Shown here: positions 34,721-48,020 of the stretch, piece after piece
Layout of the letters: every line of letters begins with the position of its first letter
Position numbering within the stretch: position 1 is the stretch's first letter
Assembly: GCA_944325875.1 (NCBI GenBank)
Contig: CALVBU010000002.1
Coordinates: 124,001-188,000, forward strand
Direction of reading: 5' to 3'
Length of the DNA stretch: 64,000 nt
DNA from: Candidatus Gastranaerophilales bacterium
GTDB lineage: Bacteria; Cyanobacteriota; Vampirovibrionia; Gastranaerophilales; Gastranaerophilaceae
The notes under the pieces: generated by a model
Database searches by the model: none
What the model saw: only the letters and a program-made list of their open reading frames with translations
Told to the model about the DNA's origin: nothing
Translations under genes and position numbers: made by a program

Positions 34721-34879
34721 GAGGTGATTTTATCTCATTATTAAAATTTTTACATATTTTGTAAATTATATTAAAAAAAACACAATTTTTTTTCGTTTTC
34801 ATACGAAAAAAAAGAGGTTTTACCTCTGTAAATGTACGATTTTTTATCCAAATTTTGTCAAGTAGGAAAGGAGATAAGA

Positions 34880-35557
34880 ATGTTAGAATTAGATAAAATA
34901 AAAACAAGTATTGATGATAGGTATTTTAAAAAAAACAAACAAGAAAATAAAGGCATGTATATTGGTTTTAATTATAACATTGCCGATAATAAATTGTATT
35001 TTGAAGTTTCTGGGAAGTTATTTTCAACACCTACATCTTTTGGGGCAATTACGAGTGAAAATATTTCAGATATACCAGAGAAGATTTACAATTTGTCTGG
35101 AATTCAAATTGATAAAGATTATTTAATAAAATGTGCTCCACTATATAGAATAGATATAAAAAAAGATATTTTAGTTGATGGTAATCCCGAAAATTATATT
35201 TCAGCATTACGAGAGATTCTAAAAGCAAAATCTGATAAGTTTGATGTCTACAAACATACAAATTTAAAGTATATTGACGGATTGTCGGTTCATTCTAAAA
35301 AATTAAGCGATAAAACAAGATATACAGCTTATATTAAGTGGAGAGAGGTTTGTAAAGATAAAAATTATAAAAATATGTTTGCCTATGATTTTATAGAAAA
35401 AGCAACAAATATTATTCGTTTTGAATGCCAAATTAGGCAGTATGCAAAAATAAGAGAAATTTTTGATATTAATAGAAGTTGTTCTCCGTCAATTCAGGAT
35501 ATTTTTACTTGTGGTCGAAATGTTATATCTGATTTATTTAAAGAACTAATAGTTTGA
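34880..35557 (+). CDS. Replication initiator-like protein (phage/plasmid gene II/X, CRI-like)
   Basis: 225 residues from ATG 34880, set by AAAGGAG 7 nt upstream. The layout fits filamentous phage or plasmid gene II/X initiators: an N-terminal beta segment NKLYFEVSGKLFSTP, then SGIQIDKDYLIKCAPLYRIDIKKDIL, and a late IIRFECQIRQYAKIREIFDI that matches the family's conserved (L/I)RxExxxR-(K/R)-I. These nick a plus-strand origin in rolling-circle replication. The match is from memory of the family, so function is probable rather than certain. It starts a four-gene + strand cluster. Confidence 0.55.
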   Translation: MLELDKIKTSIDDRYFKKNKQENKGMYIGFNYNIADNKLYFEVSGKLFSTPTSFGAITSENISDIPEKIYNLSGIQIDKDYLIKCAPLYRIDIKKDILVDGNPENYISALREILKAKSDKFDVYKHTNLKYIDGLSVHSKKLSDKTRYTAYIKWREVCKDKNYKNMFAYDFIEKATNIIRFECQIRQYAKIREIFDINRSCSPSIQDIFTCGRNVISDLFKELIV

Positions 35558-35573: not shown

Positions 35574-35819
35574 ATGAAAGTAGATAATTTAATCAAAATA
35601 ATGGGTAGGCTTAAGATATGTGAAGACAACAATTGGGATCTTGCAGATATAAGAATGTTTATAATGCGAGAGTGTAATTATGGCGGGGAATCCCAATTAT
35701 CTCGTCATATTTCAAAATTCAAAATATTTATGGAAAATCATATTCTAGAATTAAAAAAAGGAAATATTATTCATGAAATATTAAAAAAATTAGAGGAGGA
35801 AAATAATGATAAATATTAA
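35574..35819 (+). CDS. Small uncharacterised element protein (81 aa)
   Basis: 81 residues, probably all helical (LADIRMFIMRECNYGGESQLSRHISKFKIF). A GGAGGAAAAG site precedes the start. It lies between the initiator and the next gene, overlapping the latter by 14 nt, so it is in the same operon. No family recognised. Confidence 0.6.
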   Translation: MKVDNLIKIMGRLKICEDNNWDLADIRMFIMRECNYGGESQLSRHISKFKIFMENHILELKKGNIIHEILKKLEEENNDKY

Positions 35820-36471
35820 CATTTGGCAAACATTAAAAGAAGGTGGCTTTGTATTGGTACCATACACAATGTTAAAAGTATTAGGGCCTATAAATTCTGT
35901 TGTGCTTGGTGAAATTGTATCTGAGTTAAACCACGCGATAAAAAATCATTTAAGTTATAATCAGGATTTTTTAACTAACATTAATAGAATGGCTGATTTT
36001 TTAGGAATGCAATATGAAGAAGTAATTTCAGCTGTAAAAGAATTGCAGGAACAAGAATTAATTGCTGTATCAAATTCTTATATTAAAAATACCATATATA
36101 TGGTTGTGAATATAGATAAAATTCTTGAATTGCAGAAAAACATTATTACGGAGTACTTATTTTGTGGTTGGGATAGCGGATTGATGATGTGTCAAAATCC
36201 CACACATGAAAAAACATCTTTTACAAATTCTTTGAATAGAATAAAAATTTTTATTGAAGAAAATGCTAAGGATTTAAATCCTGTTCCAATGATAGTGTAT
36301 ATGCATTTGAATTCTATAATCAAAATTATAGAAAGAAAGCAAGAAAGAAGTATTTTTGAAGTTGACCCTTTTTTATATGAAAAAATAAAAGAACAGTTTT
36401 TAGAATTAAATGAAAATTCATATAATTTAATTTCACTCTTTTTGGATATACTATCTGCAATTCAACATTAA
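35806..36471 (+). CDS. Winged-helix-like element protein
   Basis: 221 residues. Residues about 15-95 look like a replication or plasmid-type winged helix: FVLVPYTMLKVLGPINSVVLGEIVSEL, then LTNINRMADFLGMQYEEVISAVKELQEQELIAV, a recognition-helix and wing pattern. The second half is helical with no known match. AGGAGG precedes its ATG, which lies inside the preceding gene. Likely a replication or copy control protein. Confidence 0.55.
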   Translation: MININIWQTLKEGGFVLVPYTMLKVLGPINSVVLGEIVSELNHAIKNHLSYNQDFLTNINRMADFLGMQYEEVISAVKELQEQELIAVSNSYIKNTIYMVVNIDKILELQKNIITEYLFCGWDSGLMMCQNPTHEKTSFTNSLNRIKIFIEENAKDLNPVPMIVYMHLNSIIKIIERKQERSIFEVDPFLYEKIKEQFLELNENSYNLISLFLDILSAIQH

Positions 36472-37588: not shown

Positions 37589-37657
37589 TATAGAAGTGTT
37601 ATAAAAATTTTTATTACTGTGTTATTGCCAATTTATTTGAATAGATGTACATTTGAC

Positions 37658-37858
37658 ATGAATAATATTGTCATAAAATTAAATATAGATGCAGGTGGTA
37701 TTAATTTCGTGCTATTATTGTCGTTGTTCTTAGCAGAAACACAGAAAACAACCTGCAATAATGATTTATGCAATCAATATGACACAGAAATAAATAAAAT
37801 TATTTACAAATTATATGATTTAACTTCTGAAGAAGTAAATTATATTGAAAAGTGTTAA
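37658..37858 (+). pseudogene. C-terminal remnant of an adenine methyltransferase / type IIG restriction enzyme
   Basis: A 66-codon ORF (or longer from GTG 37619) whose end reads YDTEINKIIYKLYDLTSEEVNYIE. This matches the well-known tail of Eco57I/TaqI-like adenine methyltransferases and type IIG enzymes (D-x-x-I-(D/N)-x-x-(V/I)-Y-x-L-Y-x-L-(T)-x-E-E). No catalytic NPPY motif or SAM-binding domain exists upstream in this frame, so most of the enzyme is missing. It sits 16 nt before a nuclease-like gene, as expected for a decayed restriction-modification pair. Confidence 0.5.
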
Positions 37859-37874
37859 AGGATAATATTCCCAA

Positions 37875-39293
37875 ATGCCAAATATTATACAACGAATTGA
37901 ACAAATATTAAAAGAAAAAGAACCTTTATCTTTAGAAACTTTAATTGATGAAATTAAGTCTATTGCATATATACAGGATAAAGTTGTTCTTGATGAAAAA
38001 CGAATTAAAAATCAGATTTTATTAATGTTACAGAAAAATAAAATATTGAAAGATTTTGAAAATCTATTGTACCTAAATACTCCTCAAAATATGTTTAAAA
38101 TACATAAACAATCTGGCATAACAATAAAACATTATTCTTCTAATCAAGAAATAACATTAGGCTCGCCAGGCATGAAACTATCTGCAGGTATGGTTATGAC
38201 ATTTGGAGATTATAAAATTATTGAAAATAATCCAGATTCATATTTTATGGTTTTAGATGTAGATTTGCCACTTAGATTAGAGGTAAATGAGCAATTACAT
38301 AATCCATATGTAATTAAAATAGGTAATAAGAATTATAATCTTTTTCATAAAATAAAAAAAAGAGGAGAGGAGAATTTTTCTTGTTTAGATACAAATTACT
38401 TACCATACTTTTCTTCATTACAGATTTCTGCACCTACAAACAAAGAATTACTAGAATTAGATAAAGTTCAATTGTTATATGACATATTAAAAAAAATAAA
38501 TAATGTAATAAATAATAAAATATTGGAGCAATGTATAAATTATAAAATCAATTTACCTTTTACATATGCCTATATAGATCCAAAACAACATAAAATAACC
38601 CCAATAACAAATACTATTGTTTTTTTAACAACGGATGTAGAAATTTTAGGGAAAAATATTACAAATGAATATCCAAGAGAAGAATTACGGAAATTACTTA
38701 ATTCGGAGAAAATTGTCTTACAAAATAAAATCGAAGATAATATAACCGAGTATAATTCAATTTATGATTTTAGTGGAAAAATTTTTCGTTTAACACATGA
38801 TTTCTCATTTTATATCAGACAAACTCCAGAAATTTTTAATAATATGAATGAAGAATTTATAAGGGATGTTTATTTATTTTGTACAAGAGTAGGAACAGAG
38901 TATACATGTGAAGCAGAAGCTTTTAATTATGATGGTAAATCTGATTTTAAAATTATATCAAATAATAAATATGAGTATATAATAGGAGAATTCAAATGGT
39001 GGACTGGTGACAAATCTATAGAAGAACTTTGTAACCAAGGCTTAGAAAAACATGTAACTGGCCAAGAAAAAGATATTTATTTGATAATGTTAAGTAGAAA
39101 TAATACAATAAATATTCCGAAAGAAAAATCTTTGAATTATATTCGTAGTAGATCTGAAATTTTAGAAGAATGTCACGATAATGTATTACCAGAAGGTTCA
39201 AAAGAGTGTTTTTATAAATTTAAAGCTAAAATAAAAAATAATGATGTAAATGTTATTTTTGCAATTATTGATTTGCACTATAAAAGAATCTAA
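37875..39293 (+). CDS. Candidate PD-(D/E)XK nuclease with N-terminal HTH
   Basis: 472 residues. The first 65 residues (IIQRIEQILKEKEPLSLETLIDEIKS to NLLYLN) look like a HARE/winged-helix DNA-binding module found on restriction enzymes. The C-terminal third has a candidate nuclease core: E346/E348 in CEAEAF, D357 in GKSDF, and E372-F-K374 in IIGEFKWW, that is E...D...ExK with usual spacing. The long middle part is unassigned. It follows the tail of a methyltransferase-like gene, so a restriction or defence role is likely, but no homology search was run. Confidence 0.55.
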   Translation: MPNIIQRIEQILKEKEPLSLETLIDEIKSIAYIQDKVVLDEKRIKNQILLMLQKNKILKDFENLLYLNTPQNMFKIHKQSGITIKHYSSNQEITLGSPGMKLSAGMVMTFGDYKIIENNPDSYFMVLDVDLPLRLEVNEQLHNPYVIKIGNKNYNLFHKIKKRGEENFSCLDTNYLPYFSSLQISAPTNKELLELDKVQLLYDILKKINNVINNKILEQCINYKINLPFTYAYIDPKQHKITPITNTIVFLTTDVEILGKNITNEYPREELRKLLNSEKIVLQNKIEDNITEYNSIYDFSGKIFRLTHDFSFYIRQTPEIFNNMNEEFIRDVYLFCTRVGTEYTCEAEAFNYDGKSDFKIISNNKYEYIIGEFKWWTGDKSIEELCNQGLEKHVTGQEKDIYLIMLSRNNTINIPKEKSLNYIRSRSEILEECHDNVLPEGSKECFYKFKAKIKNNDVNVIFAIIDLHYKRI

Positions 39294-39544: not shown

Positions 39545-40147
39545 ATGACCACATATGCATATCTACGTGTAAGTACGTTAGAGCAAAATACTGACAAAAA
39601 CAAACTGGAAGTTTTAAAGTTTGCAAACGATAAAAAACTTGGAAATATTGAATTTATAGAAGAACAGGTTAGTGGGAAAGCAAACTTTAAAGACCGACAA
39701 CTCGGTACATTATTAGAAAAAATGGGAAACGAGGATATTTTAATTGTCTCTGAACTTTCAAGAATTGCACGCTCAATCACACAAATATTTGAAGTAATAG
39801 ACATAACCAAGCGTAAGGGGATTACTCTGTATTCCATTAAAGAAGGTTTTTCAAATAATGATAAAAGTATTACTTCAACAGTAACGACTACAATATTTGC
39901 ACTTGTCGCGCAGATTGAAAGAGATTTAATTAGTTTGCGAACAATTGAAGCATTGCAATCAAAAAAAGCTCAAGGTATAAAACTTGGTAGACCAAAAGGC
40001 AAAGGTAAATCAAAGCTTGATAAAAATAGAGAAGAAATCCTTAAATTAATTGAGTTAAAAGTGCCAAAAACAATTATTGCAAAGCAATACAACACTTCAA
40101 CTGCAAATTTATACAGATTTATGAAACCTAATCAAAAATCAACTTAA
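39545..40147 (+). CDS. Small serine recombinase (resolvase/invertase)
   Basis: 200 residues. The catalytic serine S10 lies in YAYLRVSTLEQ, followed by EDILIVSELSRIARS with the active-site arginines. The E-helix TVTTTIFALVAQIERDLISLRT leads to a C-terminal HTH (EEILKLIELKVPKTIIAKQYNTSTANLYRFM). Length and domains fit Tn3-type resolvases or invertases. GAAAGGGCG precedes the start. It is followed by a large serine recombinase after 61 nt. Confidence 0.88.
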   Translation: MTTYAYLRVSTLEQNTDKNKLEVLKFANDKKLGNIEFIEEQVSGKANFKDRQLGTLLEKMGNEDILIVSELSRIARSITQIFEVIDITKRKGITLYSIKEGFSNNDKSITSTVTTTIFALVAQIERDLISLRTIEALQSKKAQGIKLGRPKGKGKSKLDKNREEILKLIELKVPKTIIAKQYNTSTANLYRFMKPNQKST

Positions 40148-40208: not shown

Positions 40209-41717
40209 ATGGTTGTAATAAAAACTAAAGCAGTTTCTTATGCAAGAGTATCAAGTGCAGAGCAAGAAAAAGAAGGATTTTCTATTTCAGCTCAACAAGA
40301 TTTATTAAGAAGTTATGCGGAAAAAAATAATATACAAATTGTAAAAGAATTTTCAGAAGCTGAAACTGCCAAAGATGTTGGTAGACGTAAATTTAAGGAA
40401 ATGTTGCAATATCTTAAAAATAATAAAGATGTTACTACGATTTTAGTTGAAAAGACAGATAGGTTGTATCGTAATTTTAAAGATTATGTAGAATTAGATG
40501 TAGAAAAAACTGGATATACAGTTTGTTTAGTAAAAGAAGGTACAATTTTAACCGCAAATTCTACATCTCATGAGAAACTTACACATGGTTTTAAAGTTTT
40601 GATAGCAAAAAATTTTATAGATAATCTTACAGAAGAAACTCAAAAAGGTAGATTAAAGAAAGTTCAAGAAGGTTATTTTATATCTTATGTCCCATACGGC
40701 TATAAAAAATTAAATAAAAAAGATACTGAATTACATCCACAAAAATCAAAGTTTGTAAAAAGAGCATTTGAATTATATGCACAGGGGGATATATCTCTTA
40801 AAAATCTTACACAAAAATTATTTGATGAGGGGTTTATATATACACAAAGCAACCCTAAAATATCAACGGGTCATCTTGGGAAAATACTGTCAAATGAAAG
40901 CTATATTGGTTATATAAGACATTGTGGTAAATTATACAAGGGTAAACATCCTTCAATAGTATCAAAACAGTTATTTATGAAAGTCCAAAAAGCATTTAAA
41001 AAAGATGGTAAACCTGATACAAGAAATGGACATAGATTTTTATATAAAGGTTTATTAAAATGCGAAGAATGCGGGTGTGCAATTACATCTGAAATAAAAA
41101 AAGATAAGTGGATTTATTACCATTGTACTGGCAATTCAAAAACACAATGTTCACAAAAGAAAAACTATATTAAACAGGAAGAATTAGATTTACAGATTGA
41201 TGAAGCTATCAAACGTGTAGTAATAGATGATGAACTTGCGGATTATATCAATGCAATTCTTGAAGATAGTTATAAGGAAATGCAGCTTAATACAAAAGAA
41301 AAATACAATTATATAACAGCAGAGATTAAAAGAGCACAATCCCGTAAAGATAAATTACTCGAAATCTACATGGAAGGTGATATTCAAAAAGATGTATGGA
41401 CGAAAAAAACAATAGACATAGATACGCAGTTGAAGCAGTTAGAAAAACAACTTGAAATAATAAATTTGTCTGGAAAACAATTTATCAATGAGGGTACAAA
41501 TATTATTGAAGTCGCAAAGCAGACATATAACTTGTATAAACAGCAGACAACAGAAGAAAAACGTAGGTTGTTAAATATCATATTTGAAAATATTACTGTT
41601 AAAGATAGAGTTATACATTATACATATAGGAAACCATTTTGTTACTTTGCTCAATGTGATTTGAATGATTTAAATGGTATTGAGAGTTATATAAAACAAA
41701 ATATTACTAATCATTAA
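40209..41717 (+). CDS. Large serine recombinase (element integrase)
   Basis: 502 residues. The resolvase catalytic domain has S15 in YARVSSAEQEKEG; a recombinase domain (GYFISYVPYGYKK to GHLGKILSNESYIGYI) and a zinc-ribbon (CEECGCAITSE then YYHCTGNSKTQC, about residues 283-316) follow, then a coiled coil (about 365-425). This is the architecture of phage and ICE integrases acting between attP and attB. AGAGAGG precedes the ATG. Its stop overlaps a frameshifted minus-strand gene. It likely moved this element or one part of it. Confidence 0.9.
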   Translation: MVVIKTKAVSYARVSSAEQEKEGFSISAQQDLLRSYAEKNNIQIVKEFSEAETAKDVGRRKFKEMLQYLKNNKDVTTILVEKTDRLYRNFKDYVELDVEKTGYTVCLVKEGTILTANSTSHEKLTHGFKVLIAKNFIDNLTEETQKGRLKKVQEGYFISYVPYGYKKLNKKDTELHPQKSKFVKRAFELYAQGDISLKNLTQKLFDEGFIYTQSNPKISTGHLGKILSNESYIGYIRHCGKLYKGKHPSIVSKQLFMKVQKAFKKDGKPDTRNGHRFLYKGLLKCEECGCAITSEIKKDKWIYYHCTGNSKTQCSQKKNYIKQEELDLQIDEAIKRVVIDDELADYINAILEDSYKEMQLNTKEKYNYITAEIKRAQSRKDKLLEIYMEGDIQKDVWTKKTIDIDTQLKQLEKQLEIINLSGKQFINEGTNIIEVAKQTYNLYKQQTTEEKRRLLNIIFENITVKDRVIHYTYRKPFCYFAQCDLNDLNGIESYIKQNITNH

Positions 41718-42570: not shown

Positions 42571-43113
42571 ATGTCAACAGTAGAACCAATTAGAAATAAA
42601 AAAGATATTCAAAAAGTTGAGAAAATTCTCGCAAAACAATGCAAACGTGATTTGTTATTGTTTACTATTGGAACAAACTGCGGACTTAGGATATCGGATA
42701 TTTTGAGATTAAATGTTGCGGATGTGAGAAACAAAACACACATACAACTAATAGAAAAGAAAACAGGTAAGTATAAAAAATTTCCTATAAATATAAAATT
42801 AAAGCCATTACTTGAAGATTTTATTACTGGCAGAAAAAATGATGAACCATTGTTTTTATCTCGTTGGGGGCACAGACTTGACAGAGTAACCGCATATTAT
42901 ATTATTCGAAATGCCTGCGAGCAAGCAAAACTACATGAAAAAATCGGTACTCATTCTATGAGAAAATCTTTTGGTTATCACCATTATCAGCAGTTTAAAG
43001 ATATTGTTATCTTACAGAAAATTTTTAATCATTCAAGCCCGCAAATTACATTAAGATATATAGGTATTGAGCAGGACGAAATAGATTCTTCATATAATAA
43101 TTTTGTATTATAA
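42571..43113 (+). CDS. Compact tyrosine recombinase (FimB/FimE-size)
   Basis: 180 residues, catalytic domain only. All active-site residues are present: R40 in GLRISD, K64 in IEKKTGK, H128-x-x-R131 in THSMRKSFG, H154 in FNHSS, and nucleophile Y163 in TLRYIG. It lacks the N-terminal core-binding domain of XerC/D or phage integrases, like FimB/FimE of phase-variable fimbriae. AAGGAGG precedes the ATG. Matching inverted repeats 44-235 bp downstream are likely its substrate. Confidence 0.88.
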   Translation: MSTVEPIRNKKDIQKVEKILAKQCKRDLLLFTIGTNCGLRISDILRLNVADVRNKTHIQLIEKKTGKYKKFPINIKLKPLLEDFITGRKNDEPLFLSRWGHRLDRVTAYYIIRNACEQAKLHEKIGTHSMRKSFGYHHYQQFKDIVILQKIFNHSSPQITLRYIGIEQDEIDSSYNNFVL

Positions 43114-43138: not shown

Positions 43139-43154
43139 ATGACATACATTTTGA
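43139..43154 (+). repeat. Degenerate extra half-site next to the left inverted repeat
   Basis: ATGACATACATTTTGA matches the adjoining ATGTCTTACATTTTAA at 13 of 16 positions, in direct tandem. It may be an accessory binding site for the recombinase. Confidence 0.4.
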
Positions 43155-43156
43155 AT

Positions 43157-43183
43157 GTCTTACATTTTAACTATTTTGTAAGA
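43157..43183 (+). repeat. Left 27-bp inverted repeat (IRL) of a putative invertible segment
   Basis: GTCTTACATTTTAACTATTT followed by TGTAAGA is the exact reverse complement of 43322-43348. Each repeat is itself a palindrome of TCTTACA and TGTAAGA arms around a 12-bp asymmetric centre, the layout of a tyrosine-recombinase core site. Confidence 0.8.
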
Positions 43184-43321
43184 TGAATTTCTAAAAACCA
43201 CTGCATTCATAGTATCACAAATAATATCTGCTTGCAAAAAATTATAAAAAATGTAAAGTGTTATTAATTTTTAAAAGGATTTTATCTTCGAAAATCAAGT
43301 ATATCAAGGCTTCAATAAATG
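43184..43321. mobile_element. Putative invertible promoter segment (138 bp)
   Basis: This AT-rich segment holds no ORF but has a near-consensus promoter on the minus strand (43209-43237). It is bounded by 27-bp perfect inverted repeats and adjoins a compact tyrosine recombinase. Inversion would turn the promoter toward the + strand genes beginning at 43405. As sequenced it points the other way. Confidence 0.65.
43209..43237 (-). promoter_or_regulatory. Promoter inside the invertible segment, currently facing left
   Basis: On the minus strand -35 TTGCAA (43232-43237), a 17-bp spacer, and an extended -10 TGATACTAT (hexamer 43209-43214). Transcription would run leftward through the left repeat and antisense to the recombinase 3' end. 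Confidence 0.65.
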
Positions 43322-43348
43322 TCTTACAAAATAGTTAAAATGTAAGAC
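43322..43348 (-). repeat. Right 27-bp inverted repeat (IRR) of a putative invertible segment
   Basis: TCTTACAAAATAGTTAAAAT followed by GTAAGAC is the exact reverse complement of 43157-43183. It ends 56 bp before the downstream ATG at 43405. Confidence 0.8.
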
Positions 43349-43404
43349 GTTTTTTAAATAACCATAAAATGAAACTGTAAATATAAGGAAATAATACTGC
43401 AGTT

Positions 43405-44058
43405 ATGGTTTTATTAAGTGATTTTGATAAGGTATTAGAGGAAAATTTATTTAATCCAATTTCAGAAGATATTAACTGTCGTTACAACTCATGGGAACAC
43501 TGTTATGCTTTTTTCTATAAAAATAAAGAAAAGATAATATGTGATGATATGCTGGATACAGCAGCATTAAATCTTGGGTTCTACCTTGGAAATTGGGGAA
43601 TGTTTAGAAAATCATTCTTAATGAACAAAGATTATAAAATTCATGTTCATGTTATTAAAAGATTGCTTAGCGAGTGTAAAGAATTATGGCAGCCCTATGA
43701 TAAAATTTCGTGGAATGATATACAAAAGGCAAATGATATTATTAATGAGGGTTATAAAGATATCTGCAAATCCAAAAGAGTTTCAAAAATTTTAATTTCA
43801 AAGATTTTATTAGGTATTTTTGCCTGTGTTCCTGCGTATGATCGATACTTTGTGCTTGCTGCAAAAAATAGCAATGGGCTTATTTATCATAACTATTCTG
43901 AACAAAGTTATAATGATGTAAAAAAGGTTCTTTCTACTCTTAGTTATGAAAACAATAGGCATTTATATGATGATAAACAGATAACTTATCCACCAATGAG
44001 ATTGCTTGACGCATATTTTTGGTTTAAGGGCAAGGAACTTGATAATAGAGCCAAATAA
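43405..44058 (+). CDS. SWEHCY / GCVPAYDRYF-type uncharacterised protein
   Basis: 217 residues. The motifs YNSWEHCYAFFYKN, ALNLGFYLGNWGMFRKSFLMNKDYKIHVHVI, and ILLGIFACVPAYDRYF match what I remember of a widespread family without a known function, found sporadically in bacteria, often in accessory DNA. It has no signal peptide. It is the first gene after the putative invertible promoter, with only a weak ribosome-binding site. It could be switched on and off with the following secreted and membrane genes. Confidence 0.65.
   Translation: MVLLSDFDKVLEENLFNPISEDINCRYNSWEHCYAFFYKNKEKIICDDMLDTAALNLGFYLGNWGMFRKSFLMNKDYKIHVHVIKRLLSECKELWQPYDKISWNDIQKANDIINEGYKDICKSKRVSKILISKILLGIFACVPAYDRYFVLAAKNSNGLIYHNYSEQSYNDVKKVLSTLSYENNRHLYDDKQITYPPMRLLDAYFWFKGKELDNRAK

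Positions 44059-47946: not shown

Positions 47947-48020
<74 letters not shown>

Follow-up and report, generated by a model that had tools for sequence, protein, structure and literature searches.

Stand-alone fusions of a winged helix and a nuclease are experimentally characterised 6mA-dependent type IV enzymes, and those of the DpnI and FcyTI kind couple the winged helix to a PD-(D/E)XK nuclease (PMC11037411). PDC-S54 (PADLOC PDLC05036), in turn, is a candidate single-gene phage-defence family of about 410 aa; PDC candidates originate from 'guilt-by-embedding' (PMC12988326), and our literature search found neither PDC-S54 by name nor any validation of it. The gene at positions 37875-39293 on the forward strand of the window, the 64,000-nucleotide stretch of a Candidatus Gastranaerophilales genome (a gut lineage with cyanobacterial kinship) that was analysed as a whole, can be compared with both. 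Like the DpnI/FcyTI kind, it is a stand-alone gene whose product would carry a winged helix and a PD-(D/E)XK nuclease, but the winged helix is N-terminal rather than C-terminal as in the characterised enzymes, and an extra module of 220 residues lies between the domains, with no sequence match found. DpnI and other 6mA readers are absent among the structural matches listed, an absence that carries no evidential weight. With PDC-S54 the protein has in common the E-E..R, E, GKxD, ExKxW, and Q positions of the nuclease domain, whereas a winged helix and a central module replace the front part of PDC-S54, and the gene is solitary where canonical PDC-S54 is embedded in type I restriction-modification (R-M) loci. 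The protein is an uncharacterised variant among known single-gene candidate defence nucleases. Our main reading, with a probability of about one half, is that it is a stand-alone, methyltransferase-independent DNA endonuclease of type IV-like organisation that travels on mobile DNA as defence cargo.

The gene itself is well founded. The initial annotation had its coordinates exactly right: the frame, on the forward strand, opens with ATG, runs for 472 codons, and is backed by homologues and by a match to PDC-S54, and the window copy is intact and keeps all conserved residues. A full-length homologue in another genus (genome G104) is 51% identical; the two genes diverge least at codon position 2 (0.27) and most at position 3 (0.48), and identity is about equal across the winged helix, the centre, and the nuclease domain (49, 49, and 54%). 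On this comparative evidence the gene is intact and under constraint. Around it no terminator-like site was found, and promoter-like sites were not above chance. The protein was modelled with AlphaFold2 on a 19-row alignment (mean pLDDT 75.8), which was used instead of a single-sequence prediction with a mean pLDDT of 31. Three parts are discernible, a winged helix (residues 1-74), a beta-rich centre (75-294), and a PD-(D/E)XK domain (295-472); the first and most of the last are modelled with confidence, and the centre is mixed. Searching the PDB by sequence was unproductive, and Foldseek found no match for the whole model in the PDB or the viral libraries at E <= 0.001. The domain-level structural matches cited below come from VIA-align; their Z values are moderate, and the comparison hardly covers the central module.

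The C-terminal domain (residues 295-472; 38757-39290) is the predicted nuclease. Eleven positions reach a conservation of 90% or more across the 19 rows, namely E326, E327, R330, E348, G354, D357, E372, K374, W376, G378, and Q388, and the conservation of D357, E372, and K374 is far above chance. In the model, E326-E327 (38850-38855) begin the first core helix, D357 (38943-38945) lies within strand 355-361, and E372-x-K374 (38988-38996) within strand 368-375, so that the conserved D...(D/E)xK residues occupy adjacent strands of the core sheet, the arrangement expected of the superfamily. The best fold matches are type II enzymes, OkrAI (residues 298-472; Z 9.7, 138 residues, 3.2 A) and BamHI (Z 8.9), from which the window protein differs in its extra N-terminal domains and in having no cognate methylase; the catalytic motif of BamHI, moreover, ends in ExE, and that of the window nuclease in ExK. 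McrC, of the type IV system McrBC, has a similar fold (Z 8.2 over 115 residues), but here no McrB GTPase partner is seen beside the gene and the N-terminal part is different. Pfam PF08011 was matched below threshold only (E 0.004). Because these moderate Z values coincide with conserved E...D...ExK residues in the strands where they are expected, a PD-(D/E)XK (restriction-endonuclease-like) fold is strongly supported as the predicted structure of the domain. Such a core, with the same residue numbering, had been proposed in the initial annotation; the model places the E and K residues on core strands rather than scattering them, and the proposal stands.

PDC-S54 is the sole significant library match of the protein (E 1.6e-13, residues 302-430), and profile-profile comparison of residues 302-468 with PDC-S54 by hhalign gave a probability of 97.3% (E 2e-11); the figures are those of a clean comparison, a version with a clade member inside the PDC-S54 alignment having been dropped as circular. 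To judge from the profiles, the nuclease domain is homologous to PDC-S54. The library match nevertheless spans profile positions 246-372 of 410 only, short of the whole model, whereas canonical members match positions 1-407, that is, end to end. The N-terminal region gave an hhalign probability of 0.6% from an alignment shallow enough to leave room for very remote kinship, and any relation of the central region to the N-terminal part of PDC-S54 is undetectable by profile comparison. Since homology is confirmed for residues 302-468 alone and the N-terminal parts are unalignable, the protein is, at the level of sequence, a nuclease of the PDC-S54 type built into a different protein framework. 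Two canonical PDC-S54 genes occur in two Gastranaerophilales genomes (L011:9530-10759 and L012:3758-4981). Both belong to type I R-M loci of the order hsdM, hsdS, PDC-S54, hsdR, a placement between hsdS and hsdR that fits the 'guilt-by-embedding' origin (PMC12988326). Among six plasmid-borne PDC-S54-type genes that were inspected, one is near type I R-M genes, and an annotated methylase stands beside none, with annotation that is incomplete.

The front end is of a different character. Residues 1-74 (37875-38096) are modelled at a pLDDT of about 85-95 as helices 4-15, 20-35, and 41-53 plus a wing, and align structurally with the cullin WHB, MecI/BlaI, and other winged helices. The cullin WHB is the top match (Z about 10, 1.5 A). 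Pfam returned Cullin_Nedd8 for the G104 homologue, though below threshold (E 0.0049); this likeness is probably convergence of small winged helices. The initial annotation had described a HARE-like N-terminal DNA-binding module, of which the DNA-binding type is retained in the predicted winged helix and the HARE identity is not. The RNA polymerase delta subunit, a protein with a HARE-type domain, appears among many winged-helix matches (Z 7.1). HARE domains differ from winged helices by a helix inserted in the HTH (PMC11037411); the HARE label is unsupported because the model is a plain three-helix winged helix without the inserted helix and a Pfam search returned no HARE match. One relative (L003/L014) has no winged helix, and the domain is thus dispensable in some members. 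The central module (residues 75-294; 38097-38756) had no Pfam match and is conserved to about the same degree as the nuclease domain.

The relatives are few. Apart from the window copy, the clade is represented in 286 genomes from the order by three relatives, one of them truncated at the edge of its contig, and a single degraded remnant; pattern matching over 84,980 species genomes recovered the same three relatives. In named records they are filed under Candidatus Gastranaerophilales, or as MAGs labelled Cyanobacteria or simply bacterium. The N-terminal 300 residues were found only in Gastranaerophilales, in the three relatives and the remnant; viral contigs and phages yielded no whole-protein relative, and plasmids the nuclease part only. 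The copy in G104 is flanked by S-layer-type genes, that in G198 adjoins a DUF3800 gene and a nucleoside transporter, and the truncated copy in G232 lies beside a Bro-N gene, with genes for a Mu/TniA-type transposase, TniB, and a GmrSD type IV system a few kb upstream. No partner gene is shared among them. The segment L010:9049-13794, near the G232 copy, which holds the GmrSD-type gene together with the TniA/TniB-type transposition genes, is possibly a transposon with restriction cargo. The remnant, in G177 (L006:1501-1659), is a degraded central module (residues 104-156) beside stops and next to a gene that by eye is RhuM-like.

A further question is whether such a nuclease must be paired with a methylase. 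The initial annotation had placed the gene directly after the tail of a modification enzyme and suggested that the nuclease had lost its methylase. The tail is real. A 79-codon frame on the same strand (37619-37858) aligns through its 28 C-terminal residues with the far end of models for type IIG restriction enzyme-methyltransferases (E 3.7e-4, positions 1218-1245 of 1247), and over residues 32-78 it shares 47% identity with a portion of a 1150-aa open frame from a second genome belonging to the same family. These two matches identify it as a type IIG scar, which adjoins the nuclease gene but is no working part of the system. The nuclease could accordingly be half of a broken R-M pair, formerly protected by the neighbouring methyltransferase; only 16 bases separate the stop of the remnant from the nuclease start codon, and OkrAI and BamHI, the best fold matches, are type II enzymes. 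Type IIG enzymes, however, carry their own nuclease, and the relatives have no accompanying methylase. When the D12, C5, N6, and N6/N4 Pfam families were searched over four whole genomes, none matched on the contig that bears the G104 copy or on that of the G198 copy, and the matches on the G232 contig came from one locus, interrupted by stops and more than 40 kb away. No intact DNA methylase is present in the probable island that surrounds the window copy, so the gene stands alone there as it does on the G104 and G198 contigs, and in place of the adjacent cognate methyltransferase of a type II R-M system the window has only the type IIG tail of fewer than 80 codons. The genome to which the window belongs has several DNA methylases elsewhere; that of G104 has none of the D12 and C5 types. 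Because type IIG enzymes have a nuclease of their own and the relatives lack a methylase nearby, the supposed loss is unsupported, and a broken pair is very unlikely. The nuclease does not depend on the upstream type IIG enzyme and is not the toxic survivor of a decayed R-M pair; nor, since relatives carry it without a methylase beside it, does an intact nuclease next to a dead methylase pose a paradox. That the window copy is itself an inactive remnant may be set aside as extremely improbable: the G177 locus demonstrates that members of the family can decay, but the window copy has a full open frame, all the conserved residues, and conservation in every domain.

Given that the relatives are likewise without a protecting methylase, the protein probably serves in defence as a compact, self-sufficient enzyme, and a mode of action like that of type IV or other single-gene restriction systems may be envisaged. 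The proposal of the initial annotation, that it may be a type IV-like or novel defence nuclease, remains the most promising lead. A predicted nuclease and a predicted winged helix, a domain of DNA-reader type, are combined in one chain, as in type IV systems. The C-terminal domain would cut DNA with metal ions held on D357 and E372, K374 serving as the catalytic lysine, and the winged helix would bind DNA. The clade-specific central module might read a feature of foreign DNA, either a base modification or a structure formed in replication or recombination. The host would be spared because its own DNA lacks the recognised feature, and, as the solitary relatives suggest, a companion methylase would not be needed. 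Carriage as mobile defence cargo is favoured by the three recombinases near the window copy and, in G232, by the TniA/TniB-type and GmrSD genes upstream of the copy. Tentatively, and at less than even odds, the gene would represent a novel family of single-gene restriction systems, recorded to date from Gastranaerophilales alone; in it, a PDC-S54-type nuclease would be guided to a foreign mark by the winged helix and by a central module not described before, with no methylase involved. Alternatively, the N-terminal modules may sense a phage protein or an infection signal and release indiscriminate degradation of DNA, making the protein an abortive-infection or conditionally activated nuclease. 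A central module as conserved as the nuclease is what a sensor would lead one to expect, and the fold matches include, at lower strength, Can2 (Z 7.2), a nuclease that a signal molecule activates; against this, Pfam recognised no known sensor domain and the relatives have no partner gene in common, and we consider such a role rather unlikely. A housekeeping function for the mobile element or the cell, in recombination, repair, or transposition, is less probable again. Recombinase or transposase genes do lie near the copies in the window and in G232, but the G104 and G198 copies have none beside them, and the nuclease family is itself a candidate for defence, with members found inside type I R-M operons. 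If the main reading, a methyltransferase-independent defence endonuclease, is correct, the PDC-S54 nuclease domain would be a transferable effector that is combined with differing recognition modules, and the uncultured gut lineage would offer a short and testable defence candidate.

The surroundings in the window agree with the mobile region of the initial annotation. The gene sits in a low-GC stretch with three recombinases, namely two serine recombinases on the forward strand (39545-40147 and 40209-41717; Pfam Resolvase and Recombinase) and a small tyrosine recombinase (42571-43113), and a gene at 35806-36471 has weak matches to replication proteins. Synteny with a sister genome breaks off at about 34258, and sequence homologous to another genome picks up again at a tRNA-Arg at 47947. 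An island between these points, with putative ends, is therefore likely; no clean empty site for it was found. Within this interval, a 241-aa frame at 34832-35557 resembles by eye the gene II/X-type replication proteins of phages and plasmids, a family for which neither Pfam nor PHROGs returned a match. Finally, two 30-nt inverted repeats (43154-43351), 97% complementary and 138 nt apart, lie directly downstream of the tyrosine recombinase and upstream of an open reading frame at 43405-44058, an arrangement that looks like an invertible DNA switch.
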